Positions 2,333-18,037 of a stretch of DNA of 26,638 bases are shown piece by piece (the first letter of the stretch is position 1; each line of letters opens with the position of its first letter). The stretch is from positions 1 to 26,638 of the IMG/VR virus record IMGVR_UViG_3300008107_000400, one strand, 5' to 3'. Origin of the DNA: a virus. The notes beneath the pieces are model-generated. The model was not told where the DNA came from. It saw nothing but the letters and a program-made list of their open reading frames with translations, and made no database searches. The translations under genes were made by a program, and so were the position numbers.

Positions 2333-2340
2333 TATTTATG
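2333..2340 (-). promoter_or_regulatory. T4-type late promoter of the 717-residue gene
   Basis: CATAAATA on the minus strand differs from the T4 late consensus TATAAATA at one base. It ends five bases before the ATG at 2327. The TAA stop codon of the terminase (2336-2338) lies inside the box, so promoter and stop share bases. Confidence 0.65.
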
Positions 2341-3800: not shown

Positions 3801-3808
3801 TATTTACA
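3801..3808 (-). promoter_or_regulatory. T4-type late promoter of the large terminase
   Basis: TGTAAATA on the minus strand is one base off TATAAATA and ends five bases before the ATG. It lies directly downstream of the terminator at 3811-3836, so the terminase appears to be its own late unit. No Shine-Dalgarno site fits between box and ATG. Confidence 0.6.
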
Positions 3809-3810
3809 AT

Positions 3811-3836
3811 AAAAAAGCGACCCTATGGGTCGCTTT
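3811..3836 (-). terminator. Intrinsic terminator between the 353-residue gene and terminase
   Basis: A perfect 10-base-pair stem (3814-3823 with 3827-3836, core AGCGACCC) with a 3-base loop is followed on the minus strand by six T. It sits about 20 bases past the stop of the upstream gene (3855). Confidence 0.9.
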
Positions 3837-3854: not shown

Positions 3855-4916
3855 TTAGCCGTTGAGCATCTTGCTTAACTTAACAATTTCATTTGATTCT
3901 TTCATTGGAAATGCTTTTTCAGGTTTGGTAACATCCTGGCCGTATCCGCGGGCATTTGGATCAAATCGTGCCGCGTTGTAACTTACTGGTTCTGCTGGTT
4001 GTCCAGTAACTGCACCTTTAATAGAATTCTTTGCCTTTTCTAACCACTGAGCAATTGACAAATTATTGTTATCTCTATTATAACGCTGCACAAAATTATA
4101 CATATCCTGATTCTGTCGACCCATTACAACATCACGCCATTTATTTTTTTCTAAGTAAGTGTCTGCACTTGGGTACTGTTGTTTAAATTTATTAGTTTCT
4201 ACGTAATCCTCAGGTTTCATTTGTGCAACAATTGCCTTTACTTCAGGAGTTCCGGCAATGTGAGCACCAAACATACGATTAGTGTTTGCATTACTAGGTT
4301 GCATTAATTTAACATCAAATTCATTTAATGTCTCATTAACGTTGTCTCTTGATTTAATAGACTCGTACATGCTTGCTAAACGATTAACTAGATCTTCGTC
4401 GACACCAAATGGGTTTCCGCCACCGTTAACTTTTTCAGCTTCTGCACCTTTGCTGTGCAGATCGTTACCTGTGGGAGTTACATCACCTACAGTACCGTGT
4501 GCCTCATCTGGACTATTTGCATACTCATCCATTGGCATGTCTGTGTCACCAATAATAGGTTCTTTGTCCATTTTGCCCATTAGTTTACCTAACTGTTCTT
4601 CACCACCATCTTCACCGTCGATGTTTTTTAATATATCTAATAGATCGCGAATGCCACCTGACCCAGATCCATTCATGCTTAAATTCATAGTAACGGTATC
4701 TTGTTGTTCTTGATTCATGCTAGGCATTGGGCCCATTCCGCACTCCTCGACATCATCTTCTTTCACTTGAAAAGTTTTGCCGTCAACTTCAAATTCATCT
4801 TTGCCGGCATCTTTGGCAGCATCAAGTGCGCCACTGAAGGCATTACCTTCATTTGGTTCTTCAGTTACTGGTTGATCCAGCTCTCTCATTTTCTGGAATA
4901 GTTCGTTAAAGTTCAT
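3855..4916 (-). CDS. Conserved acidic phage protein, function unknown
   Basis: This is a 353-residue protein I cannot assign. It is acidic and rich in Met, Gly, Asn and Asp. A Gly/Ser-rich stretch near residue 85 precedes a short helical segment (IRDLLDILKNI), then low-complexity acidic sequence. The C-terminal half (about 190-353) looks more ordered, with KPEDY and several Tyr/Asn-rich segments. There are no membrane segments. A clear Shine-Dalgarno (AAAGGA) lies upstream of the ATG. The stop of the preceding gene is at 4919, so the two are translationally coupled. It lies between the small and large terminase genes and ends in a terminator. A role in late assembly is inferred from position only. 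Confidence 0.75.
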   Translation of the reverse strand: MNFNELFQKMRELDQPVTEEPNEGNAFSGALDAAKDAGKDEFEVDGKTFQVKEDDVEECGMGPMPSMNQEQQDTVTMNLSMNGSGSGGIRDLLDILKNIDGEDGGEEQLGKLMGKMDKEPIIGDTDMPMDEYANSPDEAHGTVGDVTPTGNDLHSKGAEAEKVNGGGNPFGVDEDLVNRLASMYESIKSRDNVNETLNEFDVKLMQPSNANTNRMFGAHIAGTPEVKAIVAQMKPEDYVETNKFKQQYPSADTYLEKNKWRDVVMGRQNQDMYNFVQRYNRDNNNLSIAQWLEKAKNSIKGAVTGQPAEPVSYNAARFDPNARGYGQDVTKPEKAFPMKESNEIVKLSKMLNG

Positions 4917-4918: not shown

Positions 4919-5524
4919 TTATTTTCCTTTAGCAGAACCAATTGGACTTTTGCCAGCAACAGGTTTAGCTTGTTCTTGTGATTTTTCTTTAGGAGCTTTC
5001 TTTGCTAGAATAGCATCATTCACGCCTTTATACTGTGTAGGTTCTGTATCTTTACGAGCCTTAGATAATTCTTTTAAGAAATTACTAACACCTTTGTCGC
5101 CTACTGTATTTTGATTATTTTCTTTTTGGTAATCTTGTGTTAAAAGAGCTTTGCCTTTTTCCATCTCTTGATTTTCAGCATTTAATTCTGCTTCTGCTTC
5201 TTCTAAAGGACTACGCACTTTGATACAGCAAGAATCAACACCTGTTTCTTGAATTAGGTAATTGTGTAATACAGTACTGGTTGTTGGATATGTAAGCTCA
5301 ACATCAAACACTGTCACGGCAGCATTTTCCATTTGTGGAAAATCTGGAAGTTTACTTTGAATAGGGGTAGTTTTAGTTTTTGCAAACTTAGCTACTTCGT
5401 ATTTTTTAAGAGCAGTTTCCATTACATCTTCACAGTTTTCTGGAAGATCTCCTGCTATTTTAATTTTGAAAGCATACTTTTTTGCTTCCTGGCTTTCTGA
5501 TAGATATTCTACAAATGATTTCAT
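4919..5524 (-). CDS. Conserved phage protein with a possible ferredoxin-like fold, function unknown
   Basis: This is a 201-residue protein of unknown function. Residues 17-110 alternate as strand (YAFKIKIAG), helix (CEDVMETALKKYE), two strands, helix (TSTVLHNYLIQETG) and strand (CCIKVRSP). That is the order of a ferredoxin-like domain, but this is my inference from pattern alone. Residues 111-201 are charged, Lys/Glu/Gln-rich and likely disordered. Similar proteins occur near the terminase genes of aquatic T4-like phages, as I recall. An AGGA-type ribosome binding site precedes the ATG. It is spaced tightly between gp16 and the 353-residue gene, so it is probably in one operon with them. Confidence 0.75.
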   Translation of the reverse strand: MKSFVEYLSESQEAKKYAFKIKIAGDLPENCEDVMETALKKYEVAKFAKTKTTPIQSKLPDFPQMENAAVTVFDVELTYPTTSTVLHNYLIQETGVDSCCIKVRSPLEEAEAELNAENQEMEKGKALLTQDYQKENNQNTVGDKGVSNFLKELSKARKDTEPTQYKGVNDAILAKKAPKEKSQEQAKPVAGKSPIGSAKGK

Positions 5525-5542: not shown

Positions 5543-6022
5543 TTATTTATTCATATTTTTAAGTTTTTCGATAAGGCTGTTACGATCCGTAACAATAACG
5601 CCCGTGCCTGAAACATCTATACCTTGATCATCTTGATTTGCGTCTTGATCAAGTTTTTGTTTCTTGATCTGCAGTTCGATCATCTTTAGTTTTTTATCAA
5701 TTTTTGCTGCTTTTGCATCAATTGCATTTTTAAGCATTGACCCTGCTACCTCAAAAACTCTTCCGGAATATCTTGCTTCTACATTCATTCCTAGATCCAT
5801 TAGGTCATCAAATGCATCTGTAGCACGTTGAGCCAGTGCATCAAACTCAGTATCGCTGATATCGCCTAGCCCTTTAACCTGTGGTAAGGCCGCTGCAATT
5901 TTGTCAAACTCTGACATGTCTCTAAGCAGTGGTTGCACAGCTTCTACAGATTGTTCTTTCTCAGCTTTTTTAATAGTTTTTTTGCTTTCGGGCAAGTTTA
6001 GAATTTCTTCAAGTTTTTTCAT
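5543..6022 (-). CDS. 16: Small terminase subunit (gp16-like)
   Basis: This 159-residue protein is probably the DNA-recognition subunit of the packaging motor and partner of gp17. The size is typical of gp16 (T4: 164 residues). Residues about 60-125 form a long predicted helical hairpin (FDDLMDLGMNVEARYSGRVF, then AKIDKKLKMIELQIKKQK), resembling the central coiled-coil oligomerisation domain of gp16. A short TGVIVTDRNSLIEKL segment at the C-terminus matches the position of the conserved gp16 tail. A good AGGA ribosome binding site precedes the start. It lies directly after gp4 and is separated from gp17 by two unassigned genes, unlike T4 where 16 and 17 overlap. The assignment rests on pattern and context, as sequence identity to T4 gp16 is weak. 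Confidence 0.75.
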   Translation of the reverse strand: MKKLEEILNLPESKKTIKKAEKEQSVEAVQPLLRDMSEFDKIAAALPQVKGLGDISDTEFDALAQRATDAFDDLMDLGMNVEARYSGRVFEVAGSMLKNAIDAKAAKIDKKLKMIELQIKKQKLDQDANQDDQGIDVSGTGVIVTDRNSLIEKLKNMNK

Positions 6023-6030: not shown

Positions 6031-6471
6031 TTATCCTACTCTGCCATTATGGAATAAGTCTTGTTCGGTAAGTATTCTAAATTTAATACCTTGTCGTGCG
6101 CACCATGCGTATGCTGCTCGCCACTTTACTTGATTCTTTGCATACTGCAGTTGGTTGTTGCGATTCTTGCCAACTTTTTCTTGTAGTGTTTGATTCTGCG
6201 GTTTGACTTCAATTAACTCGACTTGGATTTTATTGTTTTTATCTGCATACTGTATAAAAAAATCTGGTACATAAATTGTCTGTCGACCAGTAAACGGATC
6301 TTTGTAAGGTATACTTACTGCTTCACTAGCCCATTTTATAATGTTAGGATTGTTATCGCAGAATCGCATAAACTGCCACTCCCAACTACTTCTGTATGTA
6401 GGTTGACGATTGCCTACATACTTCTCTGGGTTTACAACTGTATACTTACCTTGGGCAAATCTGCGACTCAT
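6031..6471 (-). CDS. 4: Head completion protein, PD-(D/E)xK nuclease-like (gp4)
   Basis: This is a 146-residue protein of the T4 gp4 (gp50) head-completion family, which finishes DNA-filled heads before tail joining. It shows a nuclease-type motif set: Glu31 in SSWEWQF, Asp70 in YVPDFFI, and Glu88-x-Lys90 in LIEVKPQ. This is the arrangement of TnsA and T7 endonuclease I-like enzymes. All three positions are intact, so a nuclease function is plausible. The start overlaps the stop of the upstream 124-residue gene by four bases, indicating coupling. The stop is eight bases before gp16. Confidence 0.88.
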   Translation of the reverse strand: MSRRFAQGKYTVVNPEKYVGNRQPTYRSSWEWQFMRFCDNNPNIIKWASEAVSIPYKDPFTGRQTIYVPDFFIQYADKNNKIQVELIEVKPQNQTLQEKVGKNRNNQLQYAKNQVKWRAAYAWCARQGIKFRILTEQDLFHNGRVG

Positions 6472-6842
6472 TGTTTAATATTTCTGCTTTCTGTAGTTTC
6501 TTCTACGCTGGCTAGTTTAAACCCTAAGAAGGAAGTTTTTTCTCTGTATACGTTTTGTACTTCTGCAACTACTGAACTTAATTGTGCATCAGTTACACCT
6601 TTTAAAGTATCAATAAGTTTAAAAGGATTAATGTTTTCTAGTCTTGCTTGATTTAATAACACTATACTAACACTTCTTGCAGCAGCTTCGTCAAAGCCAC
6701 GCTTTAGAAAATATCCGAATACTGCGTCAATTTGATTTGTTGGAAATGTGATTTGATGTAGAAAATACTTGTCAAAGAATGCTCTAACTTCTTCTGAGCT
6801 TGATGTACCTTCTGAGGGAAAGTTTTGATTTTTATCAACCAT
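6468..6842 (-). CDS. Small conserved protein of aquatic T4-like phages
   Basis: This is a 124-residue protein with no confident function. It is mainly helical by eye, with a conserved-looking core FPTNQIDAVFGYFLKRGFD (about residues 34-52), then LLNQARLENINPFKLIDTL and LSSVVAEVQNVYR. Such small proteins occur beside gp4 or baseplate genes in marine T4-like phages and are often called structural, as I recall. It starts two bases after the stop of the upstream tube-like gene and overlaps gp4 by four bases, so it belongs to the same translationally coupled cluster. Confidence 0.75.
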   Translation of the reverse strand: MVDKNQNFPSEGTSSSEEVRAFFDKYFLHQITFPTNQIDAVFGYFLKRGFDEAAARSVSIVLLNQARLENINPFKLIDTLKGVTDAQLSSVVAEVQNVYREKTSFLGFKLASVEETTESRNIKQ

Positions 6843-6844
6843 TG

Positions 6845-7915
6845 TTAGCCACCGCCGTTTATGCTTCTAGGTTTAGCAACTGTTATGTTTGCGTTTCCGG
6901 AATCGTTAACAGGAAACACTGTATTGTTTATTGACCCTGCTCCGGCACGGCCTACATTAGTTATTCCCTTAACAGCAATATTGGTAAATTCTTGACTAAC
7001 CCCTGCTTTGGTTAAATTCTTTGAATTCTGATAGGTGTTGACTGCTGTAATAGCAGTACTGATAAAATCTAAAGGACTGTTAAATGCCTGGCCTGATGCG
7101 ACTCGGCCAAATACATCAGAAACTCCTGCAAGCACACCACCACTGCCGAACACTGTGGCAGTACCGCCACCGCCTAATGACAGAGGACTAGGTGTTGTGT
7201 CATAGTGATCAACACCAAATCCTGGCGGATTGTTCGGTGATACAGATCCTGATCCGTAGTTTACTGCTTCGTATGCTAAGGTCATAGTGTTCTGTGCAGG
7301 ACCACTATCTGCATAATTCATAGTGTCATGACTCCACTGCGAAATCACTGGATTAACTAATGTTGCACTGGTAAATTGTCTTCGAGCAAATTGATATATT
7401 GTAATATTGTTAAAAAACGGAATACTACTGTTGTTGTCTAGGCCGTAAGGTGTTCTAATAAATCCAGGTCCTAACATTGCAGTTCTATTATAGTTTCCGT
7501 AGATTTTACTAGCCTCTGCATCAGCATAGTAATAACCATAATAGTTTTCCCATAGCTGTCTAACAACTCCAAAGTTGTCTTCGTGGAACACTATATTCAC
7601 AGGTTGGTAATCAATCTTAGTTTGTACAACTTTTTTTCTATTATATTGATTTAAGGTTTCGGTAGCAATTTGAAATTTAGGTAACTCAGCAGTTTTAACC
7701 AACATGTTAATTTCATTTTGATGTTGAAATTTAAAATTTAAACTTTTTAATGCTTGACTGTTGATGCTAAAACTTACATGGTATTGAAATTTTAACTTTG
7801 GTGCCAACCGCATGTCGTCGTCAACAAACATCCTGGCTGCGTGGGCATAATCGCCCATGAGGCCTTTAGCATGTGTTAGGTTATTGACAAACTGTTTGGT
7901 GGCTTTACTGGTCAT
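6845..7915 (-). CDS. Tail-tube-fold structural protein (gp19/gp54-like paralogue)
   Basis: This is a 356-residue likely baseplate or tail-tube protein. The N-terminal half resembles the tail-tube fold: a strand-rich segment (FQYHVSFSIN), a TAELPKFQIATETLNQYNRKK loop like the tube protein's inner-wall segment, and a TMTLAYEAVNYG segment typical of tube and tube-initiator proteins. The last 150 residues are Gly/Ser/Asn-rich with little visible structure. It follows gp19 after a terminator and has its own late-promoter box (7921-7928) five bases from the ATG. T4 gp54, which starts tube polymerisation on the baseplate, is the closest idea, but the assignment to gp54 is inference. Confidence 0.7.
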   Translation of the reverse strand: MTSKATKQFVNNLTHAKGLMGDYAHAARMFVDDDMRLAPKLKFQYHVSFSINSQALKSLNFKFQHQNEINMLVKTAELPKFQIATETLNQYNRKKVVQTKIDYQPVNIVFHEDNFGVVRQLWENYYGYYYADAEASKIYGNYNRTAMLGPGFIRTPYGLDNNSSIPFFNNITIYQFARRQFTSATLVNPVISQWSHDTMNYADSGPAQNTMTLAYEAVNYGSGSVSPNNPPGFGVDHYDTTPSPLSLGGGGTATVFGSGGVLAGVSDVFGRVASGQAFNSPLDFISTAITAVNTYQNSKNLTKAGVSQEFTNIAVKGITNVGRAGAGSINNTVFPVNDSGNANITVAKPRSINGGG

Positions 7916-7928: not shown

Positions 7929-7964
7929 CGAAAAGATTAACCACGCAGTTAATGCATGGTCATA

Positions 7965-7990: not shown

Positions 7991-7991
7991 A

Positions 7992-8633
7992 TTAGGCTCT
8001 TGTACCTGGACCAGTTGCTGCGGTGCCTACTGCACGAGCAATTGCTGTACCAACACCACCTAGGCTTGAACCACCTGGTACTTGTATACAGTTATCTGGC
8101 TGGATAGAAAGATCAATTGTTACAGCACCTTGTTCACCGTAGCCTAGAGTTTGATAGTTAACTGTTGTTAAGTAGCAACCATAGCACTCCCATGTTTCTA
8201 AAACATTGGCTGCGTTAATACCGTTACCGCCGTCTAAGATTTCAAGTCTTAGTGTAAACTTGTAGTCGATAGCTGCTGCGGCACTCGACTGCTCTGCAAA
8301 GTCAAATTGTTTCTGTAGTTGTTCGCCAACTAGTTTAGAAACATTACCTGATACGTCATCACGTAGTGTAATGGCCATTGGCTGCCATGTTTGCTTGCCT
8401 GCATAGTTAATTTTACTGTTGTAAATCTCAATTACTTGGTTAGCAAACTGTACGTTTGGACGAGCTGCTGTCTGTACTTGTTTAGTAAGTTCAGTAGTAG
8501 GTGTTGATACGCCAAAGTTTTCAAACATCACACGGAAGCGATATTTTAGTTTTGGCATCAACATACCTTGTGTGCTAGCGGATTGGTCGCTAGCTAAAGG
8601 TACTGTAAATTTTGTTAATGAAGCGATTGCCAT
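7992..8633 (-). CDS. 19: Tail tube protein (gp19)
   Basis: This 213-residue protein forms the inner tube of the contractile tail, stacked as hexameric rings through which DNA passes. The family is recognised from the N-terminal LMPKLKYRFRVMFENFG strand, the long loop ending in QVIEIYNSKINYAGKQTWQP, and the ITLRDDVSGNVSKLV helix region. It also shows the WECYGCYLTTVNYQTLGYG and VTIDLSIQPDN strands. The length fits the family (T4: 163 residues; aquatic relatives about 200). A good AAAGGA ribosome binding site precedes the start. It lies 16 bases after gp18, so sheath and tube are co-transcribed as in T4, and it ends at a strong terminator. Confidence 0.95.
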   Translation of the reverse strand: MAIASLTKFTVPLASDQSASTQGMLMPKLKYRFRVMFENFGVSTPTTELTKQVQTAARPNVQFANQVIEIYNSKINYAGKQTWQPMAITLRDDVSGNVSKLVGEQLQKQFDFAEQSSAAAAIDYKFTLRLEILDGGNGINAANVLETWECYGCYLTTVNYQTLGYGEQGAVTIDLSIQPDNCIQVPGGSSLGGVGTAIARAVGTAATGPGTRA

Positions 8634-8649
8634 GTTATTATTCCTTTAA

Positions 8650-11600
8650 TTATAGACCTGCGATCTCGCCAGTGTTCTTCAAGCGCAATGGAATATAAAT
8701 GAATTCAACTGCTTTGACTGGTTCAATAGCAATGTCAATCCATAACTCATTACGATCAATCCTACTAGGTGTGTTGTTGGACTCGTCGCATACTACTATA
8801 TAGTCGTATAGAGCACGTTGTCCTACTAACTCTAATAATAGAGATTCAACTGCACCTTTAATCTCATCTCTAGTGATCTTATCATTAGGTTCAAAGATGT
8901 ATGGCTTAGCCAACGCATTTAATTGTCTACGCATGTAAATTACTAGACGTGCTACATTGATACGATCTAAACTACTTGCTGCACGAGCACGAGTCTTTTG
9001 ACCGTAGTTGACTAAACCTGTACCTGTTAGGAAAGTGATCGGGTTAATCTTCTGCTCATACAATGTATCACGTTGCCCACCATTTAATGCCACACTGCTG
9101 AACTCGCCTTCTGCAGTGATATAACCAACGGCTGTTGCGTTAGTAATACCGCCACGACGTACACCAGCTGGTGCAAACCACGGATAGCTAACTTGATCGC
9201 TTAGAGCAATAGTTCTTAGAATCATATGGCTTGGAGGAACAACTACGTTATTACCAAAGTTGTCACTTGAGAAGCCCCATGGATAGAACATGCCCATGTA
9301 CTCATCAAAGCTGGTTGCACCGATGTCATTGTCTTCGTTGGCCAGTAGTTCATTAGAACCCCACTTCAATAGACTTGTTGCATCAGGTGTTAAACGAGCA
9401 GGTGTGTCACCTACTACAAATGCTGTTAGGCCACGATCGTAGTTTAGAGTAATCATTTCACCAATTAGCTCTGGATAACCAGGGCAGGCAATTAAGTTAA
9501 ACACTCTACGCTCGTCATCACGCATTGCATCGTTGCTGTTAACTGCTGCTTGTAGAGCTGTAACAACTACCTTACGCTGTGCCTTACGGCCAAAGCTACC
9601 AGAACCGTCGTCTTGGTTACTAGACACAGTAACCCAACGATGTGTGTAATAAGCAGCCATTGCTTCGCCGCCTGTGTTAGTTGGATCGTAACGTGGATTG
9701 TCTTCAGCAATATTGATATAATCACGACGGAATGATTTTACATTGTATCCGCTTCTACGTAGATTCCATAACAACATACCTTGTGGGTATAGTGCTGGAT
9801 CCGGAGCATCCGGATCAACATAGTTACTAGTTAACAAGTCTTCGATTGCCCCTGCTTCGTAGCTGTTTGCACCAGCAGTATTGTAACGAGCATCGGCAAA
9901 TAGTACACCGTCTTCTGTTGTTTGGTCTGTCTTGTCGACTAATACCCAACGCTTAGATACAGGTAAACTTGCTAAAGCTGCATTAAATCTGTAGATTTGT
10001 GGGAAGTTTTCTAAGTCGCTAGTATCAATCCATAAGTCTCCAGTTACAAGATTTCCGCTGTCAGAACGATCACCGTTTTCTGGAGCAGTAGCTGATACAA
10101 TAGGACCAGCTGGATCTGTACCATTAGCAAAATACGGACTTGTTGCTGTCTTGTAGCCAACAAAGTCGCTGCCATCATGGATCATGATATCAATTTCGTC
10201 AATAACTGAGCTGTACCATAATTGGCCTTCTTCAGGAATTCTAGCAGGAGCATCGGCACTTGCTGCGTATACTAATGGTTCCCAGTTGCTTACAACAAAA
10301 CCACTATCTGCATCACCAGCCGGCGCAGTTGAAACAAATCTTGTTCCGCTGCCAAATGTACCACTCGATGGTTCATAGTCATATGCTGAGAATCCCATTG
10401 CAGTAAATGGGGTACCAGTTCCGTTTTTAACTCGGAAATCGCCGCCTAATAAATGACTAATTACAATTCTATTTTTAGAATCAACTTCTGCAACAATATT
10501 AGTAAATCCTGCGGCATTAATTGCTCCAGCAATGGTATCAGCATCTCCTGCTGCGCCTGCTGCTGTAAATGTTATAGTTTTAGACGAGTATGTTCCGTTT
10601 AAATTATAATCACCTAATGTAGGACTTGCTAACAAACTTTCTGCAATAATAAAAGATTTACTTCCTGCAGTTACCTGAGTTGTTATAATCTCAGATGTAA
10701 TTGTAGTTGCGCCTACAGCACCTCTTCTCCAAATTCGATAGTTTGCTAATTTTGGAGTTCCATCAAACCCTACATCTTCTGAATGATTTGTTTGAACATA
10801 TAATTGCCCAACTGGTAGATTTGTGCCGCCACCAGTAACATCTAATTCGTACAGTGCTGAATGATTGTTAGGATACAACGGAGCACTTACTGTTTCCCAT
10901 GCTAAGGTAGTACCGTTCCAACGCTTAACACGGAAACGTGCGCCTAAGTTAGCTTCGGTTGTTTTAATCCATACGCTACCTGTAGGACGAGGAGCAACTG
11001 CGCTAGACTTCCACTGCGGTACTACTGTGTGTTTGCTAATCTGTAAGGCAGGTGCAAAATATGTAGTAGTACTGAGTAAATTCAATTCTGTTAGTAATGC
11101 AGCAGTGCCTCCTAGATTAATACCGTTAGAAGTGGTGCTGGTCTCACCAGATAGTCCTAATGCAGTAGTATCAAAATATAATTCTAATTTACCGTTAACT
11201 GCTGCTGCTGACACTCCTGTTGGAGGGGTAGCATTAATAGCTGTTACCAGTGCTGCAAGACTTGCATTACCGGTAAAACTACTACCGTTAACAATTAATG
11301 TTTGACCACTGGTAATTGTAGGGTTAGATTTGCTACTAGCAACTGTTGGTTGAGATTTAAACCAGTCTGATTGGCCAACTTGTACCCACTGTCCGGTAGT
11401 TTGCCCCGGAGCAACTCCACGACTTCTATACCATACGGTGTTGTCAGACTGGCGTGCTCCTAAGATATCGCCGTGTAGTGTAGTAAGTGCAGGAGTATCT
11501 GAATCAGTATCAACTGAAACAATAGCATAGTCGCCTACTGCACCAACTGATGTTTTCGGCCCACCAGTTAACGGATCAACCCTTGTTGAATCTGTAATTA

Positions 11601-12105
11601 CTAGAGGAACTTTATTTGTAAATTTCTGACCACTGCTTGTTGTTGCAGATGCGCCGTTCCATTCAAAAATACCAAAAGCCGAAATACTAGTGTCTAACCA
11701 ATGTGTTCCATTAGCTGGATTTGAGTTAGGTTCTGTAGCACTAGCATCCAATTCTGCTAGGTCAACGTCTGCACGTACAACGTATGCGCGATTGCTAACA
11801 CCTAGTAAACTGTATGCAGCCTGTAGACCGTATTCGTTTTGCTCCCCAGCGTGTACTGGATTGCCGCTTGCATCTGTCTTGAAGATAGGATCTCCAAAGT
11901 TGTCTGCAAGATCTTTCTGGCTTGTTAGGAGATATACTTCCCCTGCATTGGCAGCAAGTGTACCCGGGGCGGTTCCGGTTCCTCCGCCATTTGATTTATT
12001 CTCAGCAGTGGCAACAATAATTAAAGGTACTGTGCCAGGCTCTGCTGGTGTATAAAATGATTCGTCAATTACTTTGACTTCTACGCCTGGTGAACTTAAT
12101 GCCAT
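8650..12105 (-). CDS. 18: Tail sheath protein with a large inserted region (gp18)
   Basis: This is the contractile tail sheath, 1151 residues against 659 in T4. The N-terminal sheath segment (LSSPGVEVKVIDES, YGLQAAYSLLGVSNRAYVVRAD) and the C-terminal core (about 740-1151; KVVVTALQAAVN, FNLIACPGYPELI, WFAPAGVRRGG, NPITFLTGTGLVNYGQKT, NVARLVIYMRRQL) are clear. Between about residues 125 and 735 lies extra sequence. It holds at least five short modules of the form G-x-x-W-hydrophobic-x-T followed by an aromatic-rich strand (near 134, 376, 432, 626 and 688). It also holds two segments (266-312, 494-563) resembling flagellin-hook repeats with a central ALVTAIN or AIAGAIN-like motif. The start has a strong TTAGGAG site and a perfect late promoter upstream. 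The insertion probably decorates the outer sheath surface. Confidence 0.95.
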   Translation of the reverse strand: MALSSPGVEVKVIDESFYTPAEPGTVPLIIVATAENKSNGGGTGTAPGTLAANAGEVYLLTSQKDLADNFGDPIFKTDASGNPVHAGEQNEYGLQAAYSLLGVSNRAYVVRADVDLAELDASATEPNSNPANGTHWLDTSISAFGIFEWNGASATTSSGQKFTNKVPLVITDSTRVDPLTGGPKTSVGAVGDYAIVSVDTDSDTPALTTLHGDILGARQSDNTVWYRSRGVAPGQTTGQWVQVGQSDWFKSQPTVASSKSNPTITSGQTLIVNGSSFTGNASLAALVTAINATPPTGVSAAAVNGKLELYFDTTALGLSGETSTTSNGINLGGTAALLTELNLLSTTTYFAPALQISKHTVVPQWKSSAVAPRPTGSVWIKTTEANLGARFRVKRWNGTTLAWETVSAPLYPNNHSALYELDVTGGGTNLPVGQLYVQTNHSEDVGFDGTPKLANYRIWRRGAVGATTITSEIITTQVTAGSKSFIIAESLLASPTLGDYNLNGTYSSKTITFTAAGAAGDADTIAGAINAAGFTNIVAEVDSKNRIVISHLLGGDFRVKNGTGTPFTAMGFSAYDYEPSSGTFGSGTRFVSTAPAGDADSGFVVSNWEPLVYAASADAPARIPEEGQLWYSSVIDEIDIMIHDGSDFVGYKTATSPYFANGTDPAGPIVSATAPENGDRSDSGNLVTGDLWIDTSDLENFPQIYRFNAALASLPVSKRWVLVDKTDQTTEDGVLFADARYNTAGANSYEAGAIEDLLTSNYVDPDAPDPALYPQGMLLWNLRRSGYNVKSFRRDYINIAEDNPRYDPTNTGGEAMAAYYTHRWVTVSSNQDDGSGSFGRKAQRKVVVTALQAAVNSNDAMRDDERRVFNLIACPGYPELIGEMITLNYDRGLTAFVVGDTPARLTPDATSLLKWGSNELLANEDNDIGATSFDEYMGMFYPWGFSSDNFGNNVVVPPSHMILRTIALSDQVSYPWFAPAGVRRGGITNATAVGYITAEGEFSSVALNGGQRDTLYEQKINPITFLTGTGLVNYGQKTRARAASSLDRINVARLVIYMRRQLNALAKPYIFEPNDKITRDEIKGAVESLLLELVGQRALYDYIVVCDESNNTPSRIDRNELWIDIAIEPVKAVEFIYIPLRLKNTGEIAGL

Positions 12106-12112
12106 CTTGGAG

Positions 12113-12118
12113 TCTCCT
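12113..12118 (-). promoter_or_regulatory. Strong ribosome binding site of gp18
   Basis: AGGAGA on the minus strand lies about seven bases before the gp18 ATG. It contrasts with the late genes here that have no Shine-Dalgarno site at all. Confidence 0.85.
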
Positions 12119-12137
12119 AAGGTTTCTGTTCTATTTG

Positions 12138-12145
12138 TATTTATA
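12138..12145 (-). promoter_or_regulatory. Perfect T4 late promoter of gp18
   Basis: TATAAATA on the minus strand is identical to the T4 late consensus. If initiation occurs about six bases downstream, the leader is about 27 bases and includes the AGGAGA site. This fits the sheath being one of the most abundant late proteins. Confidence 0.85.
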
Positions 12146-12201
12146 GGTTTGAACAGAAAACCACTAGCTTACACACATCCGAAAAGGGGAGAAAAAGGGC
12201 A

Positions 12202-12209
12202 GCTAAATA
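12202..12209 (+). promoter_or_regulatory. T4-type late promoter of the HNH-like gene
   Basis: GCTAAATA on the plus strand ends five bases (ctatt) before the ATG at 12215. It diverges from the gp18 promoter at 12138-12145. A purine-rich stretch (12183-12199) lies upstream of the box, too far away to serve as a ribosome binding site. Confidence 0.6.
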
Positions 12210-12214
12210 CTATT

Positions 12215-12556
12215 ATGTCAAGACCTTTATGCCTTTGCGGGCAACGACCAGCTGCCGTTAACTATCATAAAGAAGGTAAAACCTACTATCGAAAAAAATG
12301 TGAAGTATGCCTTCGCTACGGTGGAGTAGGAAAAGGGTTACCTAAATGGTTTCAAGATGGCTACAGAATGAAACCCGTATGTGACAAATGCGGATTTAAA
12401 TCTAAATTTAGAGAGCAATTTAATGTGTTTCATGTGGACGGGAACTTAAACAATTCCCGTCCTGCTAATCTTAAGACAGTGTGTGCAAACTGTCAGCGAG
12501 TTCTTCAGAAAGAGGGAGTTCAGTGGCGTCAGGGCGATCTACGACCAGATTTTTAA
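12215..12556 (+). CDS. HNH-type zinc-binding protein, possible endonuclease
   Basis: This is a 113-residue protein. It has four Cys pairs (C6/C8, C29/C32, C56/C59, C90/C93), probably two zinc sites. An HNH-like segment contains FHVDGN (H73, D75, N77), a downstream NL pair (N85-L86) and CANCQ. The last position, usually His in HNH nucleases, is Gln here, and the first His of the common HH pair is Phe, so activity is uncertain. Similar free-standing proteins are common in cyanophage-type T4-like genomes. The frame is open further upstream, but the ATG at 12215 is preferred because it directly follows the late-promoter box and avoids overlap with gp18. The 3' end overlaps the dNMP kinase gene by 86 bases, tail to tail. 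Confidence 0.75.
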   Translation: MSRPLCLCGQRPAAVNYHKEGKTYYRKKCEVCLRYGGVGKGLPKWFQDGYRMKPVCDKCGFKSKFREQFNVFHVDGNLNNSRPANLKTVCANCQRVLQKEGVQWRQGDLRPDF

Positions 12557-13163
12557 TCTGCGCAAACAGCTGATCAATAGTGCCATTATTGTCTATTTCA
12601 AGATCAATTCCTTTACCAATCCACGCTGTTTCGCTAGCATGAATCTTACGCTGTTCCATACGCATCTTACTAATAGACCAGCTCATATTTGTAGGGCCTT
12701 GATTCATATTCCATGCATCTTGATACCATTCAGGATCGGCACCTCGAACTACCCGCACTACTTTGCCGCCTGCACTTTTAATAGCTTTGATTTCATTAGG
12801 AAAACGTACATCACTGATAACAATGTTATCGCCTGTTTTACGCATTTTATTTTCTAAACTAGCAATCCAGATGTCATCGTGAAAGCCTTGGCGGCATACT
12901 TCGGTACCCCAGTATTGTAGGATATGTCGTGGGGTAATATCTTTACCTAGACGATTGCTCCACCACTCGTCACGTTGCTCTCGCCATTCGCGAGCTTCTT
13001 TTGTACGTCCTTCCAACAGAACGCGGTCCCAACCAAATACGGCTGCTACCGCGTCTTTCAATGTGTTTGCAAATGAGTCACGGCGAAATCCGTGAAAGTT
13101 AACCAAATAATCTGCGGCAGTATCTTTGCCTGACCCAATAAATCCAACGAAGCCTATGATCAT
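12471..13163 (-). CDS. 1: Deoxynucleoside monophosphate kinase (gp1-like)
   Basis: This 230-residue cytoplasmic kinase of the T4 gp1 family phosphorylates dNMPs to dNDPs for phage DNA synthesis. The P-loop is GFIGSGKDT (residues 7-15). A DVRFPNE motif follows near residue 120, typical of this family, and a central HILQYWGTEVCRQ segment forms the lid or substrate region. The length matches T4 gp1 (241 residues). The last 28 residues are encoded over the 3' end of the HNH-like gene on the other strand. A TGGAGA ribosome binding site and a sigma-70-type promoter (13184-13212) precede it. It is thus an early/middle-type metabolic gene set among late virion genes. Confidence 0.92.
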   Translation of the reverse strand: MIIGFVGFIGSGKDTAADYLVNFHGFRRDSFANTLKDAVAAVFGWDRVLLEGRTKEAREWREQRDEWWSNRLGKDITPRHILQYWGTEVCRQGFHDDIWIASLENKMRKTGDNIVISDVRFPNEIKAIKSAGGKVVRVVRGADPEWYQDAWNMNQGPTNMSWSISKMRMEQRKIHASETAWIGKGIDLEIDNNGTIDQLFAQIKNLVVDRPDATELPLSEELADSLHTLS

Positions 13164-13183
13164 ATTATCTCCAGTGATAATAT

Positions 13184-13212
13184 ATATTACAGGATTTTTA
13201 CACTAGTGTCAA
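13184..13212 (-). promoter_or_regulatory. Sigma-70-type promoter of dNMP kinase
   Basis: On the minus strand TTGACA (13207-13212) and TAATAT (13184-13189) are separated by exactly 17 bases. The predicted start is near 13177, about 14 bases before the ATG, with TGGAGA inside the leader. A palindrome, ACACTAGTGT (13200-13209), overlaps the -35 element and could be an operator, but this is speculative. Confidence 0.75.
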
Positions 13213-13218
13213 GAGTGA

Positions 13219-13596
13219 TTACACTCCGTATTTGTTCGTTTTAATCTTAGCAACCGGACTTACTTTGTTAGTTGTGTCCAATTCTAAACTGCGCATGTCG
13301 CCGTGATTTAAATCTTCGTAGTCAGCGCCGACTGCTTTGGCAGCTTGAACAAACATCGCTTGTTCTTCTTTAGTATAGGGATAGATAGTCTTCTTTTTAC
13401 CGTGCCAGCTTTTGCCATCAATGTCCGGTTTAGTTTTGCCATCAGTGCCGGCCATAGCTTGGCCTAACTTAAATGCTACATAGTCACTATTGGCTTTTTC
13501 TTTGTCGCTGTAGATGTTCATACCTTTAGTAGACTGGCTTTGTCTCTTAGTAGGCTTGGGCTGACGCACTTCTGTAATAACTTCGTAGATTTTCAT
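13219..13596 (-). CDS. Small basic protein, function unknown
   Basis: This is a 125-residue protein I do not recognise. It starts MKIYEVITEVRQ, an opening common among small late proteins of aquatic T4-like phages. A basic, Gln/Ser-rich segment (residues 12-30) follows, and the middle contains KSWHGKKKTIYPYTKEEQAMF. There is no membrane segment. The start is supported by a late-promoter box (13603-13610) six bases upstream. The gene ends just before the dNMP kinase promoter. Confidence 0.7.
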   Translation of the reverse strand: MKIYEVITEVRQPKPTKRQSQSTKGMNIYSDKEKANSDYVAFKLGQAMAGTDGKTKPDIDGKSWHGKKKTIYPYTKEEQAMFVQAAKAVGADYEDLNHGDMRSLELDTTNKVSPVAKIKTNKYGV

Positions 13597-13602
13597 ATTG
13601 AG

Positions 13603-13610
13603 TATTTATC
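13603..13610 (-). promoter_or_regulatory. T4-type late promoter of the 125-residue gene
   Basis: GATAAATA on the minus strand ends six bases (ctcaat) before the ATG at 13596. There is no Shine-Dalgarno site in the gap. Confidence 0.6.
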
Positions 13611-13621
13611 AATAGATTTTT

Positions 13622-13834
13622 CTAATTAGCTATATTAATGTCATTAGGTTCAACTTCTATATTAGAAGTTGACTCTGTCCAAAAATTTTTAGGACATTTT
13701 GATTTACTTAATTTACATTTTGCTGGCATAAAACACCCGCACTTATTACATACTTTAAATTTACTATGAAAATTTTCACAAGATTTACAAATATTAAGTC
13801 GTTCAATATATTCATTGTTATTAACAAAAAACAT
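13622..13834 (-). CDS. Small zinc-ribbon-like protein
   Basis: This is a 70-residue protein with a Cys-rich core: CKSCENF, then CNKCGCFMPAKC, then KCP. At least six Cys could form one or two zinc sites of ribbon or rubredoxin-knuckle type. The function is unknown; small proteins of this kind recur in aquatic T4-like phages. An in-frame GTG lies five codons upstream, but the ATG at 13834 is preferred because GGAG at 13842-13845 sits seven bases before it and would lie inside the longer reading. It follows gp13 on the same strand with a 32-base gap. Confidence 0.7.
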   Translation of the reverse strand: MFFVNNNEYIERLNICKSCENFHSKFKVCNKCGCFMPAKCKLSKSKCPKNFWTESTSNIEVEPNDINIAN

Positions 13835-13866
13835 AATAAATCTCCACACCTACATTAAATAATAAT

Positions 13867-14628
13867 TTATCCAATAATCCATGTAAGACCAGTTCCCCCT
13901 GGTACATAAGTTTCTAATTCTTTGTCTAACTTTTCCATTTCTTCTTTGCCAGCAGATTTTAGGTCTGTACCATTTAGTCCGCCTGCTCCGCCTGGGCCTG
14001 CAATGTTAGCAAACTTACTACGAGCTTCGCCTAGTATAATCTTACAGATAGCCAGTGAATAATCTTTTATCCACTGTCCTGCATAGATATCGTTAATAAG
14101 CGTATAATCGGGTCTGTAGTTTTGACAACGTAGCATTATACTTTCCCCTTCAGTAAAGGGTCTTTGTAAAATTCTCAATGTACGACTTGTGGGAATCCAC
14201 TGAAATTCTATGTAACTACCAAACATTTTACCTACCATTTCTTGATAGCTAGCAAACATAAAATATGTTGCAATGCCGCCTAACATCGTACTATTTAAAA
14301 GGTACGTGTTAGTATACGCAAGATTGAAGGGTTCAAAGTTTGTACCAGTTCCTCCACCAGTTCTTGATCCCAAAGTTCTACGAAATACTGACTGGACGTT
14401 GATAATTTCTGCAGGAAGTGTGTAATCATTTTTATCTTTCTCAAGAGTTAAAAAACTGTAACTTTCTTCTACTGCGTTAGGGCTACGCTGTCTAAATCTA
14501 GATAGTGTGCGATTTAACGCAGTTTCGTAGTGTATCGGGTCAAGCTCAACATCTACCATACCGTCACCTAACATTGTGCGGCAGTAATTGTATACTTGTT
14601 GACGTACTTCTTGTGGATTGTCTGACAT
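13867..14628 (-). CDS. 13: Neck protein (gp13-like)
   Basis: This 253-residue protein is a component of the head-tail neck. Features resembling the gp13 proteins of aquatic T4-like phages are the N-terminal PQEVRQQVYNYCRTMLGDGM, the DPIHYETALNRTLSRFRQRS helix, and EESYSFLTLEKDKNDYTLP. The C-terminal half has WIKDYSLAICKIILGEARSK, a Gly-rich GPGGAGGLNGTDLK loop and a closing TWIIG. The last segments are like those of head-tail connector and neck proteins in general. A perfect TATAAATA (14644-14651) and a CGGGAG site precede it. It is transcribed away from gp14, whereas in T4 genes 13 and 14 run together. Assignment to gp13 rests on recalled family resemblance and on adjacency to gp14. Confidence 0.75.
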   Translation of the reverse strand: MSDNPQEVRQQVYNYCRTMLGDGMVDVELDPIHYETALNRTLSRFRQRSPNAVEESYSFLTLEKDKNDYTLPAEIINVQSVFRRTLGSRTGGGTGTNFEPFNLAYTNTYLLNSTMLGGIATYFMFASYQEMVGKMFGSYIEFQWIPTSRTLRILQRPFTEGESIMLRCQNYRPDYTLINDIYAGQWIKDYSLAICKIILGEARSKFANIAGPGGAGGLNGTDLKSAGKEEMEKLDKELETYVPGGTGLTWIIG

Positions 14629-14643
14629 TTGAATCTCCCGTTA

Positions 14644-14651
14644 TATTTATA
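14644..14651 (-). promoter_or_regulatory. Perfect T4 late promoter of gp13
   Basis: TATAAATA on the minus strand lies 15 bases before the gp13 ATG, with a GGGAG ribosome binding site between. It is separated by a single base from the plus-strand gp14 promoter. Confidence 0.8.
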
Positions 14652-14652
14652 C

Positions 14653-14660
14653 GCTAAATA
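14653..14660 (+). promoter_or_regulatory. T4-type late promoter of gp14
   Basis: GCTAAATA on the plus strand ends seven bases (ttatact) before the gp14 ATG at 14668. No Shine-Dalgarno site is present. It sits back to back with the gp13 promoter. Confidence 0.65.
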
Positions 14661-14667
14661 TTATACT

Positions 14668-15966
14668 ATGCCACGTTTATCACTTTACAAGCCCGAAAAA
14701 GGCAACGATTACAAGTTCTTAGATCGCAGCATATCTGAAATGTTTCAGGTAGGCGGTACTGATGTGTATTTTCACAAATATCTAGGTCCTAAAAATCCAT
14801 TAACTGGAGAGTCAACTATTGACAAACCTAACTACGATGTTATCAAAGAAACTAATATTCAAGATTTACTATTCTTAGAAAATCGTGATAGAAAATATGA
14901 CAGCTCAATTTATAGAATTCGTGGCATTTATAACGTACAAGATCTTGATTTTAATCTAAGTCAATTTGGTTTATTTTTAGATCAGGATACAGTTTTTATG
15001 ACTGTACACATTAACGACACAGTAAGTACTGTGGGGCGTAAACCCCTAAGCGGTGATGTATTAGAATTACCTCACTTAAAAGACGAGTTTGCACTTAACG
15101 ATGCAGATGTTGCACTTCCTAGATATTTTGTAATTGAAGATGTTGGACGAGCTGCTGAAGGTTTTAGCAGAGACTGGTATCCACATCTATATAGATTGAA
15201 GTTAAAGAAACTAGTTGCTGGTCAACAGTTTGCAGATATTTTAAACAAACCTACAGATGAAGATGCAAATTTTGTTGGTGATTATTCTGCTAGTGCAACA
15301 TACACAGCTGGTCAAATTATTAGATATCAAGGTACATTGTATACTGTAACCGCAACCACTACAGGAAATACCCCGCCTAACACTAGTTATTTTTCACCGT
15401 ACGGCGGGCAAAGTATACAAGGTATTCTCAGCACACAGTCTAAAAATCTTGAAATCAACGATGCTATCATTGCACAAGCAGAAGCAGATGCTCCTAAAAG
15501 TGGATATGAAACTCAGCAGTTCTACACACTAGCAGTTGACGAAGCTGGTAAGCCTGCACTTAGAACTGCAGATGAAACAGATTTGTTTAGTGATAACACT
15601 AGTTTAGATGCTAGTAGAATAGCTGATCGTCCAAAGCGTACTGGTTATATGGGCTATCTAGTAGGCGATGGCGTACCTGACAATGGAGTTGCAGATTTTG
15701 GATTTGGGTTATCCTTCCCCGGTGGTGCAACTGATGGAGATTATTTCTTACGTACAGATTATGTGCCAAACAGACTGTTTAGATACAACGGATCTATGTG
15801 GGTCAAACGTGAGGATTCTGTGAGACACACATTAACTAATACTGACGCTAGACAAACTCTTAAAACTGGTTTTATTAACAATACTAATAGTGCGGTTATT
15901 GATGGAGACACAGTTGAAGAACGTCAACCACTATCTAAAGCACTTAAACCTAGGGCAGATTTCTAA
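14668..15966 (+). CDS. 14: Neck protein (gp14-like) with an inserted carbohydrate-binding-like module
   Basis: This 432-residue protein is larger than T4 gp14 (256 residues). It starts MPRLSLYKPEKGNDYKFLDR, which I recognise as the start of gp14-type neck proteins in aquatic T4-like phages. A VGGTDVYFHKYLGP segment follows, and later LPRYFVIEDVGRAAEGFSRDWYPHLYRLKLKKL, as in T4 gp14's region before its C-terminus. Residues about 205-250 form an extra module (SATYTAGQIIRYQGTLYTV, then TTTGNTPPNTSYF) resembling chitin/cellulose-binding CBM5/12 repeats. The C-terminal part holds a DYFLRTDYVPNRLFRYNGSM segment. The frame is open 13 codons further upstream, but that would cover the promoter, so the ATG at 14668 is chosen. 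The stop overlaps the gp15 start by one base. Confidence 0.82.
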   Translation: MPRLSLYKPEKGNDYKFLDRSISEMFQVGGTDVYFHKYLGPKNPLTGESTIDKPNYDVIKETNIQDLLFLENRDRKYDSSIYRIRGIYNVQDLDFNLSQFGLFLDQDTVFMTVHINDTVSTVGRKPLSGDVLELPHLKDEFALNDADVALPRYFVIEDVGRAAEGFSRDWYPHLYRLKLKKLVAGQQFADILNKPTDEDANFVGDYSASATYTAGQIIRYQGTLYTVTATTTGNTPPNTSYFSPYGGQSIQGILSTQSKNLEINDAIIAQAEADAPKSGYETQQFYTLAVDEAGKPALRTADETDLFSDNTSLDASRIADRPKRTGYMGYLVGDGVPDNGVADFGFGLSFPGGATDGDYFLRTDYVPNRLFRYNGSMWVKREDSVRHTLTNTDARQTLKTGFINNTNSAVIDGDTVEERQPLSKALKPRADF

Positions 15967-17609
15967 TGCAATATTTTTATGACGGACAGATAAGACGATA
16001 TCTTACACAAATTATTAGACTACTTAGTAATTTTGTAGTTAGGTATGGTGACGGTACACTGGTTAGAGTTCCAGTTATGTACGGTGATGTTGACCGACAG
16101 GCAGCAAGTATCATTAATCAAAATAGTGAAAACACCTTACCAGCAACGCCAAAAATTGCAGTATATGTTACAGACTTTGATCTAGCAAGAGATAGATTAG
16201 GCGATGCTACGTATGTTGGTAAAATGCATTTTAGAGAACGTGCAGTAGATGAAGAAACTGGCATGTATACTAATGAGCAAGGTAGAAACTATACTGTAGA
16301 AAGACTCATGCCTACACCGTTTACATTAACTGTTAAGGTTGATATTTGGTCTGCTAACACTGAACAGAAGTTACAAATACTTGAGCAAATTCTTGTATTG
16401 TTTAACCCCAGTTTGGAAATACAAACTACCGACAACTATGTTGACTGGACTAGTTTAAGTGTTGTTGAACTAGGCGATGTTGTGTTTAGTTCCCGAACTA
16501 TACCAACAGGTACAAACAGTGCCATTGATGTAGCATCGTTAACATTAACTACCCCTGTTTGGATTAGCCCTCCAGTTAAAGTTAAGAAGTTAGGCATTGT
16601 TACTAATATTATTAATAACATATTTGGGTCTATAGATCCTGGCGCAACAGATTATATCGATGGGTTAGGTGTCGATCCTAACGTGGGAGTTCGTAGTCCT
16701 TCTAATTTCCTTACAGAAGAAATAGTAACTGTGGGTAATTATGATATTTTTGTTGAAGCCAATACTGCTAGATTAATTAACAATGAAACAGGAGCTAGTA
16801 CATATCTATCATGGAAGATGGTTACTGATCAATATCCGGGAACATTTACTCCTGGATTAAGTAAAATTTATCTTATTCAGGCAGATGCAACTGAAGTTGT
16901 AGGCACACTAAGTATCCATCCGCAAGATGATACTGTAATGGTAGCTACATGGGACACTGACACATTCCCGTCAAATAACTATATTGACAGTGCTGGTAAT
17001 ATTGAAGACATTGACGTTGGTTATAGCTCTGCAACTGGAAGAGGGACTTTTGATGCTGTGATTGATCCTAGCGCATTTAACCCAAAACGTCCCAATAAAG
17101 AAACAACTGATCAACCTATTACAGCAGGTATACGATATCTCATAATTGAAAGTATAGGCGGCTGGGCTCGAGAAACTTTTATTTCTTCATCTAAAATAAA
17201 GAGTATTAATACAGGAGTTGAGTTTGATCGAGTATATGATTGTCAAGTATTAGTTGACGGAGTAGAAGTTGGATTGTCTACTCCTATAAATCGAGATGGG
17301 TATTACGTTATTGTACTGAATAATATTGTACAAGTGGGCAGTAAAATAACATACATACTAACTTTTAACGAAGAAGGGCCGACGGCCTGGAAGAACACAG
17401 ACGGTAGTGATTTTATTGCAGCAGCCAATGATATTATAGAATGGAAAAATAATCAATGGAATGTAATATTTTCTTCGTATGATCACAATGACATAATTAT
17501 ATATCAAACAAACTTTTATACCACTGCACAGTACAAATGGAACGGTGTAGAATGGGTTAAATCATTTGAAGGCGAATATAAGAGGGGTCAATGGAGAATA
17601 TCAATGTAA
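15966..17609 (+). CDS. 15: Tail completion / sheath stabiliser protein (gp15) with C-terminal extension
   Basis: The first 215 or so residues match T4 gp15, the hexameric tail terminator that caps the sheath and joins the tail to the neck. Matches include YFYDGQIRRYLTQIIRLLSN, LVRVPVMYGD, PTPFTLTVKVDIWSANTEQK and ILEQILVLFNPSLEI. The protein is 547 residues, twice T4 gp15 (272). Residues 216-547 are an added region. It is strand-rich and ends in short Trp-containing repeats (IIEWKNNQWNVIF, YKWNGVEWVKSF) like the modules in gp14 and gp18. The start overlaps the gp14 stop (TAATG) and its stop overlaps the Nudix start by 19 bases, so all three are translationally coupled. Confidence 0.93.
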   Translation: MQYFYDGQIRRYLTQIIRLLSNFVVRYGDGTLVRVPVMYGDVDRQAASIINQNSENTLPATPKIAVYVTDFDLARDRLGDATYVGKMHFRERAVDEETGMYTNEQGRNYTVERLMPTPFTLTVKVDIWSANTEQKLQILEQILVLFNPSLEIQTTDNYVDWTSLSVVELGDVVFSSRTIPTGTNSAIDVASLTLTTPVWISPPVKVKKLGIVTNIINNIFGSIDPGATDYIDGLGVDPNVGVRSPSNFLTEEIVTVGNYDIFVEANTARLINNETGASTYLSWKMVTDQYPGTFTPGLSKIYLIQADATEVVGTLSIHPQDDTVMVATWDTDTFPSNNYIDSAGNIEDIDVGYSSATGRGTFDAVIDPSAFNPKRPNKETTDQPITAGIRYLIIESIGGWARETFISSSKIKSINTGVEFDRVYDCQVLVDGVEVGLSTPINRDGYYVIVLNNIVQVGSKITYILTFNEEGPTAWKNTDGSDFIAAANDIIEWKNNQWNVIFSSYDHNDIIIYQTNFYTTAQYKWNGVEWVKSFEGEYKRGQWRISM

Positions 17610-18037
17610 CAGAAATCGACTGTTCTGGGGCACTCATTTGTGCTAGGGACACGCAGAGATTTCTACTACTACAAAAAAATGAAGGCAGACACAGCGGACG
17701 CTGGGTATTAGTAGGCGGTACTAATCACACAGGAGAGTCTGCATGGCAAGGTCTTAAAAGAGAAATTGAAGAAGAAGTTGGATTTCTTCCGGAAATTAAA
17801 AAGACAATACCATTAGAACGGTTTGTTAGCAATGACAGCTTGTTTAACTTCCATACATATTTCTGTGTAGTTGAAGCAGAGTTTGTGCCAACCCTTAGCC
17901 AAGAACACTCAGCATGGGGTTGGTTTGATTTAAATAATCTACCTAAGCCAGTACACAAAGGTCTTGATCTAAGTTTGCGTAACAAAATTATTCAAACTAA
18001 AATACAAACAGTAATTGATATTATAGATAGCTTATAA
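17591..18037 (+). CDS. Nudix hydrolase
   Basis: This 148-residue protein carries a complete Nudix box: Gly43, Glu49, then Arg57-Glu58-Ile-x-Glu61-Glu62-x-Gly64-Phe65. The spacing is exactly GX5EX7REUXEEXGU, and the acidic metal ligands are intact. The family hydrolyses nucleoside diphosphates linked to another group (oxidised dNTPs, ADP-ribose, dinucleotide polyphosphates, sugar nucleotides). The substrate cannot be told from sequence. The start overlaps the gp15 end by 19 bases; a purine-rich AGAGGGG is just upstream. Being coupled to gp14-gp15, it appears to be made late, which is unusual for a housekeeping MutT role. Confidence 0.93.
   Translation: MENINVTEIDCSGALICARDTQRFLLLQKNEGRHSGRWVLVGGTNHTGESAWQGLKREIEEEVGFLPEIKKTIPLERFVSNDSLFNFHTYFCVVEAEFVPTLSQEHSAWGWFDLNNLPKPVHKGLDLSLRNKIIQTKIQTVIDIIDSL

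Follow-up and report, generated by a model that had tools for sequence, protein, structure and literature searches.

Across 26 T4-like genomes, the accessible text of Sullivan et al. (2010, PMC3037559) describes the synteny of the T4 core as remarkable, with few exceptions, so that a virion gene block in another order is striking to a reader used to T4. T4, P-SSM2 and the pelagiphage HTVC008M carry genes 13-14-15-16-17-18-19 in one direction, as a first-pass annotation of the DNA studied here had stated for T4 and as we confirmed in the T4 record. Here we analysed the virion gene block of IMG/VR record IMGVR_UViG_3300008107_000400, taken in its entirety (26,638 bases; hereafter, the window) and presumably a piece of a larger virus, related partial records reaching 198,740 bases and this one only 26.6 kb. 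The window shares homologous virion genes and T4-type late promoter motifs with the three phages but differs from them in gene order, and the collinear order 13-14-15-16-17-18-19 of Straboviridae and Kyanoviridae is not found in it. As detailed below, the order in the window is genuine and well supported, and it is the usual one in its phage group, which consists of jumbo phages rather than a T4-like genus in the strict sense.

Between window positions 2300 and 17700, no close DNA match was found among named phages; in tblastn searches, the terminase and the tail sheath matched PA5oct-like phages, Atu_ph07 and Phosso best, and for the sheath SCTP-2 scored high, too. We mapped the block in six jumbo isolates (Phosso, PA5oct, 121Q, Atu_ph07, Vibrio phage 2.275.O and SCTP-2) and in eight records from outside the group (T4, P-SSM2, HTVC008M, Aeh1, Mosig, Melnitz, OC and DLP6), with the PA5oct/Phosso-type jumbo phages as a working group defined for this analysis. 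In Phosso (PV764938, a Sinorhizobium phage of 469 kb), gp15 and gp14 lie on one strand, gp14 and gp13 are adjacent and divergent, and the other strand carries gp13, deoxynucleoside monophosphate kinase (dNMPK), gp18, two tube genes, gp4, a gp16-like gene, a counterpart of the 201-residue gene, terL and a homologue of the 717-residue gene, all as in the window. Phosso differs by additional inserted genes, its best segments are 28-53% identical to the window, and, unlike in the window, no HNH match was found between dNMPK and gp18. The Pseudomonas phage PA5oct (Wroclawvirus, Arenbergviridae) has gp13, dNMPK, gp18, two tube genes, a small structural gene, gp4 and the gp16-like gene in the window order, and continues as the window does with two structural genes, terL and a distal structural gene. 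Its gp14-gp15-NUDIX genes are on the opposite strand, as in the window, but about 20 kb from gp13, and it further differs by a Hef-like endonuclease gene after gp18 and by motifs that come with leaders. The window therefore agrees with the PA5oct/Phosso-type group both in the order gp13-dNMPK-gp18-gp19-gp19b-gp4-gp16-terL on one strand and in the joint position of gp14-gp15 opposite gp13's strand.

The more distant isolates keep parts of this arrangement. In 121Q (Rak2-like, Asteriusvirus), gp13, dNMPK, gp18, the tube genes, gp4 and the gp16-like gene run as in the window and gp14-gp15-NUDIX are on the opposite strand; Vibrio phage 2.275.O keeps gp13-dNMPK-gp18-tubes-gp4, with terL elsewhere; and Atu_ph07 keeps dNMPK-gp18-tubes-gp4-terL. 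Several differences weigh against an inherited layout: terL and gp14-gp15 are distant from the block in 121Q, gp14-gp15 are on gp13's strand and distant in Vibrio phage 2.275.O, Atu_ph07 has its gp14/gp13 pair inverted with respect to the gp18 block, and the genes are scattered in SCTP-2. In all eight outside-group records, 13, 14 and 15 are codirectional, with other genes intervening in Aeh1 and OC. The accessible portions of the literature, including PMC7824862, PMC5259590, PMC6102473 and PMC6892783, yielded no description of this gene order.

A gp13 query retrieved 141 relatives from IMG/VR, and gene order was counted in the best 80 of them; the denominators are loci holding both genes, loci too short to include a gene being excluded from the count concerned, and a second set of 80 terminase loci was left out of these counts. 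The gp14/gp13 pair is divergent in 77/77 loci and directly adjacent in 76 of them, the exception (L065) having the two genes divergent and about 1 kb apart. Behind gp14 comes gp15 (68/68); on the other side, gp13 is followed by dNMPK (69/69), dNMPK by gp18 (57/57), gp18 by gp19 (36/36), gp19 by gp19b (34/34) and gp4 by the gp16-like gene (29/29), and gp18 is ahead of gp17 in 15/15. The order had at first been taken for an unusual rearrangement, a view that does not survive its recurrence in the IMG/VR loci, in Phosso and, nearly unchanged, in PA5oct. We consider it very probable that the block is the inherited virion layout of an environmental jumbo-type lineage related to PA5oct and Phosso, run as short late units; the order would then be unlike that of T4 because the lineages have long been separated, with no recent scrambling of this virus.

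The block runs from 174 to 17609 in the window, well beyond the interval 8650-14628 originally singled out, which holds gp18 to gp13. Its genes and elements, with the adjoining NUDIX gene, are as follows.

174..2327, minus strand: 717-residue virion structural protein, after gp17 (PHROG, E 1e-14); TAAATA 5 nucleotides ahead of the ATG
2336..3795, minus strand: gp17 large terminase, frame broken over two frames; 139 bases absent at about 3512/3513
3801..3836, minus strand: terminator-like hairpin and T-tract (3836-3814), then late motif TGTAAATA (3808-3801), 5 nucleotides from the gp17 ATG
3855..4916, minus strand: 353-residue gene without assignment; position matches PA5oct gp281, structural by mass spectrometry
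4919..5524, minus strand: 201-residue virion structural protein (PHROG, E 3e-5), counterpart of PA5oct gp282
5543..6022, minus strand: gp16-like small terminase (PHROG small-terminase family)
6031..6471, minus strand: gp4 head closure (E 2.8e-46)
6468..6842, minus strand: 124-residue gene without family; position matches a PA5oct structural gene
6845..7915, minus strand: gp19b, second tail-tube-like protein (family match); TAAATA 5 nucleotides ahead of the ATG
7992..8633, minus strand: gp19 tail tube, also called gp19a (family match)
8650..12105, minus strand: gp18 tail sheath, 1151 residues (E 1.7e-235)
12138..12145, minus strand: late promoter motif TATAAATA ahead of gp18 (motif scan)
12215..12556, plus strand: antisense HNH protein (family match); CTAAATA (12203-12209) 5 nucleotides from the ATG
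12471..13163, minus strand: gp1, dNMPK (E 3.7e-55)
13219..13596, minus strand: 125-residue gene; TAAATA 6 nucleotides ahead of the ATG
13622..13849, minus strand: 75-residue cysteine-rich protein (phrog_13558)
13867..14628, minus strand: gp13 neck protein (PHROG head-tail adaptor Ad2, E 2.2e-30; T4 gp13 structures, E 4e-4)
14629..14667, no strand: divergent gap of 39 bases, with TATAAATA (14651-14644, minus strand) for gp13 and CTAAATA (14654-14660, plus strand) for gp14
14668..15966, plus strand: gp14-like neck protein with a CBM5/12-like insert (position and Foldseek)
15966..17609, plus strand: gp15 tail sheath stabilizer (PHROG sheath stabilizer, E 3e-19; T4 gp15 structure, E 1.6e-4)
17591..18037, plus strand: NUDIX gene, named by homology to annotated genes of PA5oct, 121Q and Vibrio phage 2.275.O

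Read from 14628 downwards, the minus strand thus carries gp13, two small genes, gp1/dNMPK, gp18, gp19, gp19b, the 124-residue gene, gp4, the gp16-like gene, two genes, gp17 and the 717-residue gene; on the plus strand, gp14, gp15 and NUDIX begin beside gp13 and point away from it, and the HNH gene lies between gp1 and gp18. The gene calls and strands bear out what the first-pass annotation had described of this arrangement: 18-19 ahead of 16-17 in transcription order, gp14-gp15 on the opposite strand and divergent from gp13, gp1 interleaved between gp13 and gp18 and gp4 between gp19b and the gp16-like gene, two genes (of 353 and 201 residues) between 16 and 17, and a virion gene set that is conserved though its order differs from that of T4. 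Genes between 16 and 17 are common in the outside records, with two in HTVC008M, three in P-SSM2 and one each in Mosig and Melnitz, whereas T4 and DLP6 have none.

The annotation had also raised the possibility of a misassembly, and we weighed a faulty contig, chimeric or misassembled, as a rival explanation. The junctions were compared with 160 IMG/VR loci (the gp13 and terminase sets together), and a misassembled block was ruled out by independent contigs that bridge them in the same order: L014 spans window 4844-24628 in one alignment at 99.76% identity, L015 spans 7152-16827 (99.85%), L013 spans 10303-20106 (99.91%) and L016 spans 13140-20150 (99.94%). The 80 loci of the gp13 set also agree on the order. 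The point in favour of a faulty contig lies within gp17, which lacks 139 bases held at this position by three contigs (L094, L095 and L096) that are elsewhere 99.7-99.97% identical to the window and have an open terminase of 532 codons. The absence of these bases splits gp17 over two frames, the break falling at a point that we take to be between the Walker A and Walker B regions, and a search for direct repeats flanking the missing stretch found none. Intact copies thus exist, and the window gp17 may reflect either an assembly fault or a defective genome; that the block as a whole is chimeric or misassembled we regard as having next to no probability.

We then examined the late promoter motifs. 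The T4 late promoter core TATAAATA occurs exactly twice in the window, ahead of gp13 and gp18; with one mismatch allowed, it is not enriched (56 occurrences versus 65 expected), and a signal emerges only once the distance to the ATG is taken into account. The shorter core TAAATA is present 20 times, both strands counted, six of these sitting 5-7 bases ahead of one of 25 gene starts, whereas the 14 other orders of its letters give 0-3 matches at 4-8 bases from the starts; the form ahead of gp14, HNH and gp19b is CTAAATA, which is the late motif of Aeh1 according to the accessible text of PMC1524935. General scans for sigma-70-type promoters (80 versus 62.0 expected, standard deviation 8.8) and terminators (18 versus 12.0, standard deviation 3.4) were uninformative on their own.

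Among the distinct upstream sequences of the IMG/VR loci, TAAATA lies 4-8 nucleotides ahead of the ATG in 57/58 for gp17, 44/45 for gp19b, 48/48 for HNH, 51/53 for the 717-residue gene and 35/37 for gp14. It stands further away, at 9-40 nucleotides, in 29/33 upstreams of gp18, 49/57 of the 201-residue gene (another 8 at 4-8) and 24/37 of gp13 (another 8 at 5). Within 40 nucleotides upstream, no TAAATA was found for dNMPK (0/50), gp15 (0/35) or gp4 (0/55), and it is rare for the 124-residue gene (2/49), the 353-residue gene (4/44), NUDIX (1/20) and the gp16-like gene (5/62). A T-tract precedes the gp17 motif in 55/57 upstreams. The late-sigma (gp55-like) family phrog_234 was detected in six of eight related records (five strong matches and one weak). 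We predict that the motifs are promoters recognised with the help of a gp55-like sigma factor. For the Rak2-like phage CBB, a motif similar to the T4 late promoter has been described at 35 places (PMC5259590, accessible text).

The distribution of motifs suggests that the block is transcribed late as a series of short units, with a T4-type late motif at the head of each. These would be gp14-gp15; gp13 towards gp1, with an extra motif before the 125-residue gene; the antisense HNH gene; gp18-gp19; gp19b through gp4 and gp16; the two genes before 17; gp17; and the 717-residue gene, with gp13 and gp14 driven from the back-to-back motifs in the 39-base gap. Against this picture, a few internal genes carry the motif in part of the loci, namely gp19a (10/51) and the 353-residue gene (the 4/44 above) at 9-40 nucleotides and the gp16-like gene (4/62) at 4-8. 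The family of the gp45 sliding clamp, phrog_223, was matched in 0/8 partial records, in which the controls were silent as well.

In the named phages, the motifs are single occurrences within 80 bases, some of which may be due to chance. TAAATA is found 16-58 bases upstream of gp14, gp13 and gp18 in PA5oct, Phosso and 121Q, and ahead of gp19a (37 bases in PA5oct, 32 in Phosso) and of the gene after terL (23 and 21, respectively); where present in Phosso, it is 11-58 nucleotides from the module heads. None was found within 80 bases of gp17 in PA5oct and Phosso, or of gp19b in PA5oct, Phosso and 121Q. T4 has TAAATA ahead of 15, 16, 18, 19 and 20. Part of the promoter set is thus shared with these relatives, and the gp17, gp19b and HNH motifs may have been gained in this lineage, though later than the order or independently of it.

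These data bear on the explanation offered by the first-pass annotation, namely, that a T4-ordered genome was recently rearranged and that this was tolerable because each module had gained its own promoter and terminator. The modules do carry late motifs at most of their heads, as claimed, those of gp17 and gp19b have no equivalent within 80 nucleotides in PA5oct or Phosso, and the gp17 motif comes after a terminator-like T-tract. Gain of these elements does not, however, account for the order, because both PA5oct and Phosso lack the gp17 and gp19b motifs and yet share the minus-strand order, which is common to all comparable IMG/VR loci. A recent rearrangement in this virus is already refuted by these comparisons, and we regard the explanation as a whole as highly improbable.

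The distance between motif and start codon is unusual. In the two IMG/VR sets, with identical contexts removed and relatedness left unweighted, the main spacing peak is at exactly 5 nucleotides (77 of 565 and 125 of 599 TAAATA occurrences), and among 134 sequences that have this spacing and differ in their N-termini, 89% carry a T immediately ahead of the ATG. Given that the T4 late motif covers positions -13 to -6 relative to the transcription start (PMC1524935, accessible text), a 5-base gap would place the transcription start on the A of the ATG, so that motifs at this distance would give leaderless late mRNAs. Shine-Dalgarno-like matches were found in 0/58 gp17 and 1/45 gp19b upstreams, and the gp17 unit is very compact, with a terminator-like element (in the window, a hairpin of 10 pairs with a T-tract), the late motif and the ATG in succession.

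In the cultured pelagiphage HTVC008M, 12 of 186 TAAATA occurrences are 5 bases from an ATG, 10 of these 12 being at annotated gene starts, which include head closure, tube cap, baseplate wedge and tail completion genes; a further 13 phage records or regions, with 0-3 sites each, show no 5-nucleotide peak. Among the phages compared, the short spacing is special to this lineage, HTVC008M excepted. The accessible literature yielded no report of leaderless late promoters in T4-like phages, the term occurring in PMC9004378 within the title of a reference; for AR9, the accessible text of PMC5312081 gives leaders of 26-491 nucleotides and remarks that phage transcripts are often leaderless. We think it rather likely that this lineage and, separately, HTVC008M fused T4-type late promoters to start codons, resulting in leaderless or nearly leaderless mRNAs for gp19b, gp17, the 717-residue gene and gp14.

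Several observations speak against leaderless transcripts. Smaller spacing peaks are present at 4, 7 and 15-19 nucleotides; Shine-Dalgarno-like matches do occur ahead of HNH (13/48) and the 717-residue gene (15/53); genome-wide, eight records hold TAAATA-N5-ATG 57 times versus 39 for the reversed control, a mild excess; and for gp14 the spacing is exactly 5 bases in 9/37 and more often 7-8, so that a leader a few bases long would remain. Alternatively, then, TAAATA at 5 nucleotides could be a translation-initiation signal or an effect of composition, as the mild genome-wide enrichment and the spread of spacings over 4-8 nucleotides would allow. This alternative is appreciable, yet we are inclined to doubt it: ahead of gp13 and gp18 the same motif comes with a leader and a Shine-Dalgarno-like sequence, it is missing ahead of several internal genes, its rearranged letters do not reproduce the six matches in the window, the gp17 copy follows a terminator-like T-tract, and the late-sigma family is found in relatives.

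The gene assignments in the block differ in strength. The weakest label is that of gp14, for which the PHROG match reads only "virion structural protein" and the identity is suggested by position and by Foldseek searches with a weak model (mean predicted local distance difference test score, pLDDT, 54). Three of the four best Foldseek matches are T4 neck-complex chains (best E 2.9e-4), the matched chain M being probably gp14, to judge from chain size and entry titles. Profile comparisons of gp14 with P-SSM2 and T4 gp14 were weak, and against solved structures, nothing was found below E 0.08, the matches being mostly carbohydrate-binding proteins. The gene was taken to start at the ATG at 14668 rather than the TTG at 14629, because the family profile starts at 14668. 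Inside gp14, a CBM5/12-like domain of chitin-binding type (15283-15384, plus strand) scores 24.2 in Pfam with a cut-off of 26.2, and Foldseek also returned chitinase-type binding modules. A repeated domain common to gp14, gp15, gp18 and the fibres was considered and rejected, the search giving a single match at E 0.24. For the gp16-like protein, matches to the PHROG small-terminase family were obtained with 15 of the 19 members of its own family (best E 6.8e-7), and the profile comparison with T4 and P-SSM2 gp16 was weak.

Best isolate matches cover about 60% of the 1151 residues of the gp18 sheath (86% in SCTP-2), so that it seems to contain a large divergent insert. The HNH gene was found between dNMPK and gp18 in 55/57 loci, steadier than expected of a homing endonuclease. 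The 75-residue cysteine-rich protein after gp13 has matches in no more than 5 of the 80 gp13 loci from IMG/VR, and in this region all five are near-identical to the window. NUDIX adjoins gp15 also in PA5oct, 121Q and Vibrio phage 2.275.O, and beyond it, at 18365-20061, the window carries a 2OG-Fe(II) oxygenase gene followed by two convergent oxygenase-looking genes.

To conclude, departure from the T4 order here marks a phage group and not a scrambled genome, which removes a false lead, and this group may be recognisable in metagenomes with the aid of its divergent gp14/gp13 pair. The gene order itself being ordinary for the group, the interesting residue is the promoter-on-ATG arrangement. 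If the spacing means leaderless transcripts, key virion genes would be translated without a Shine-Dalgarno sequence, which, if true, would bear on gene-start calling and on the choice of messages by ribosomes late in infection.

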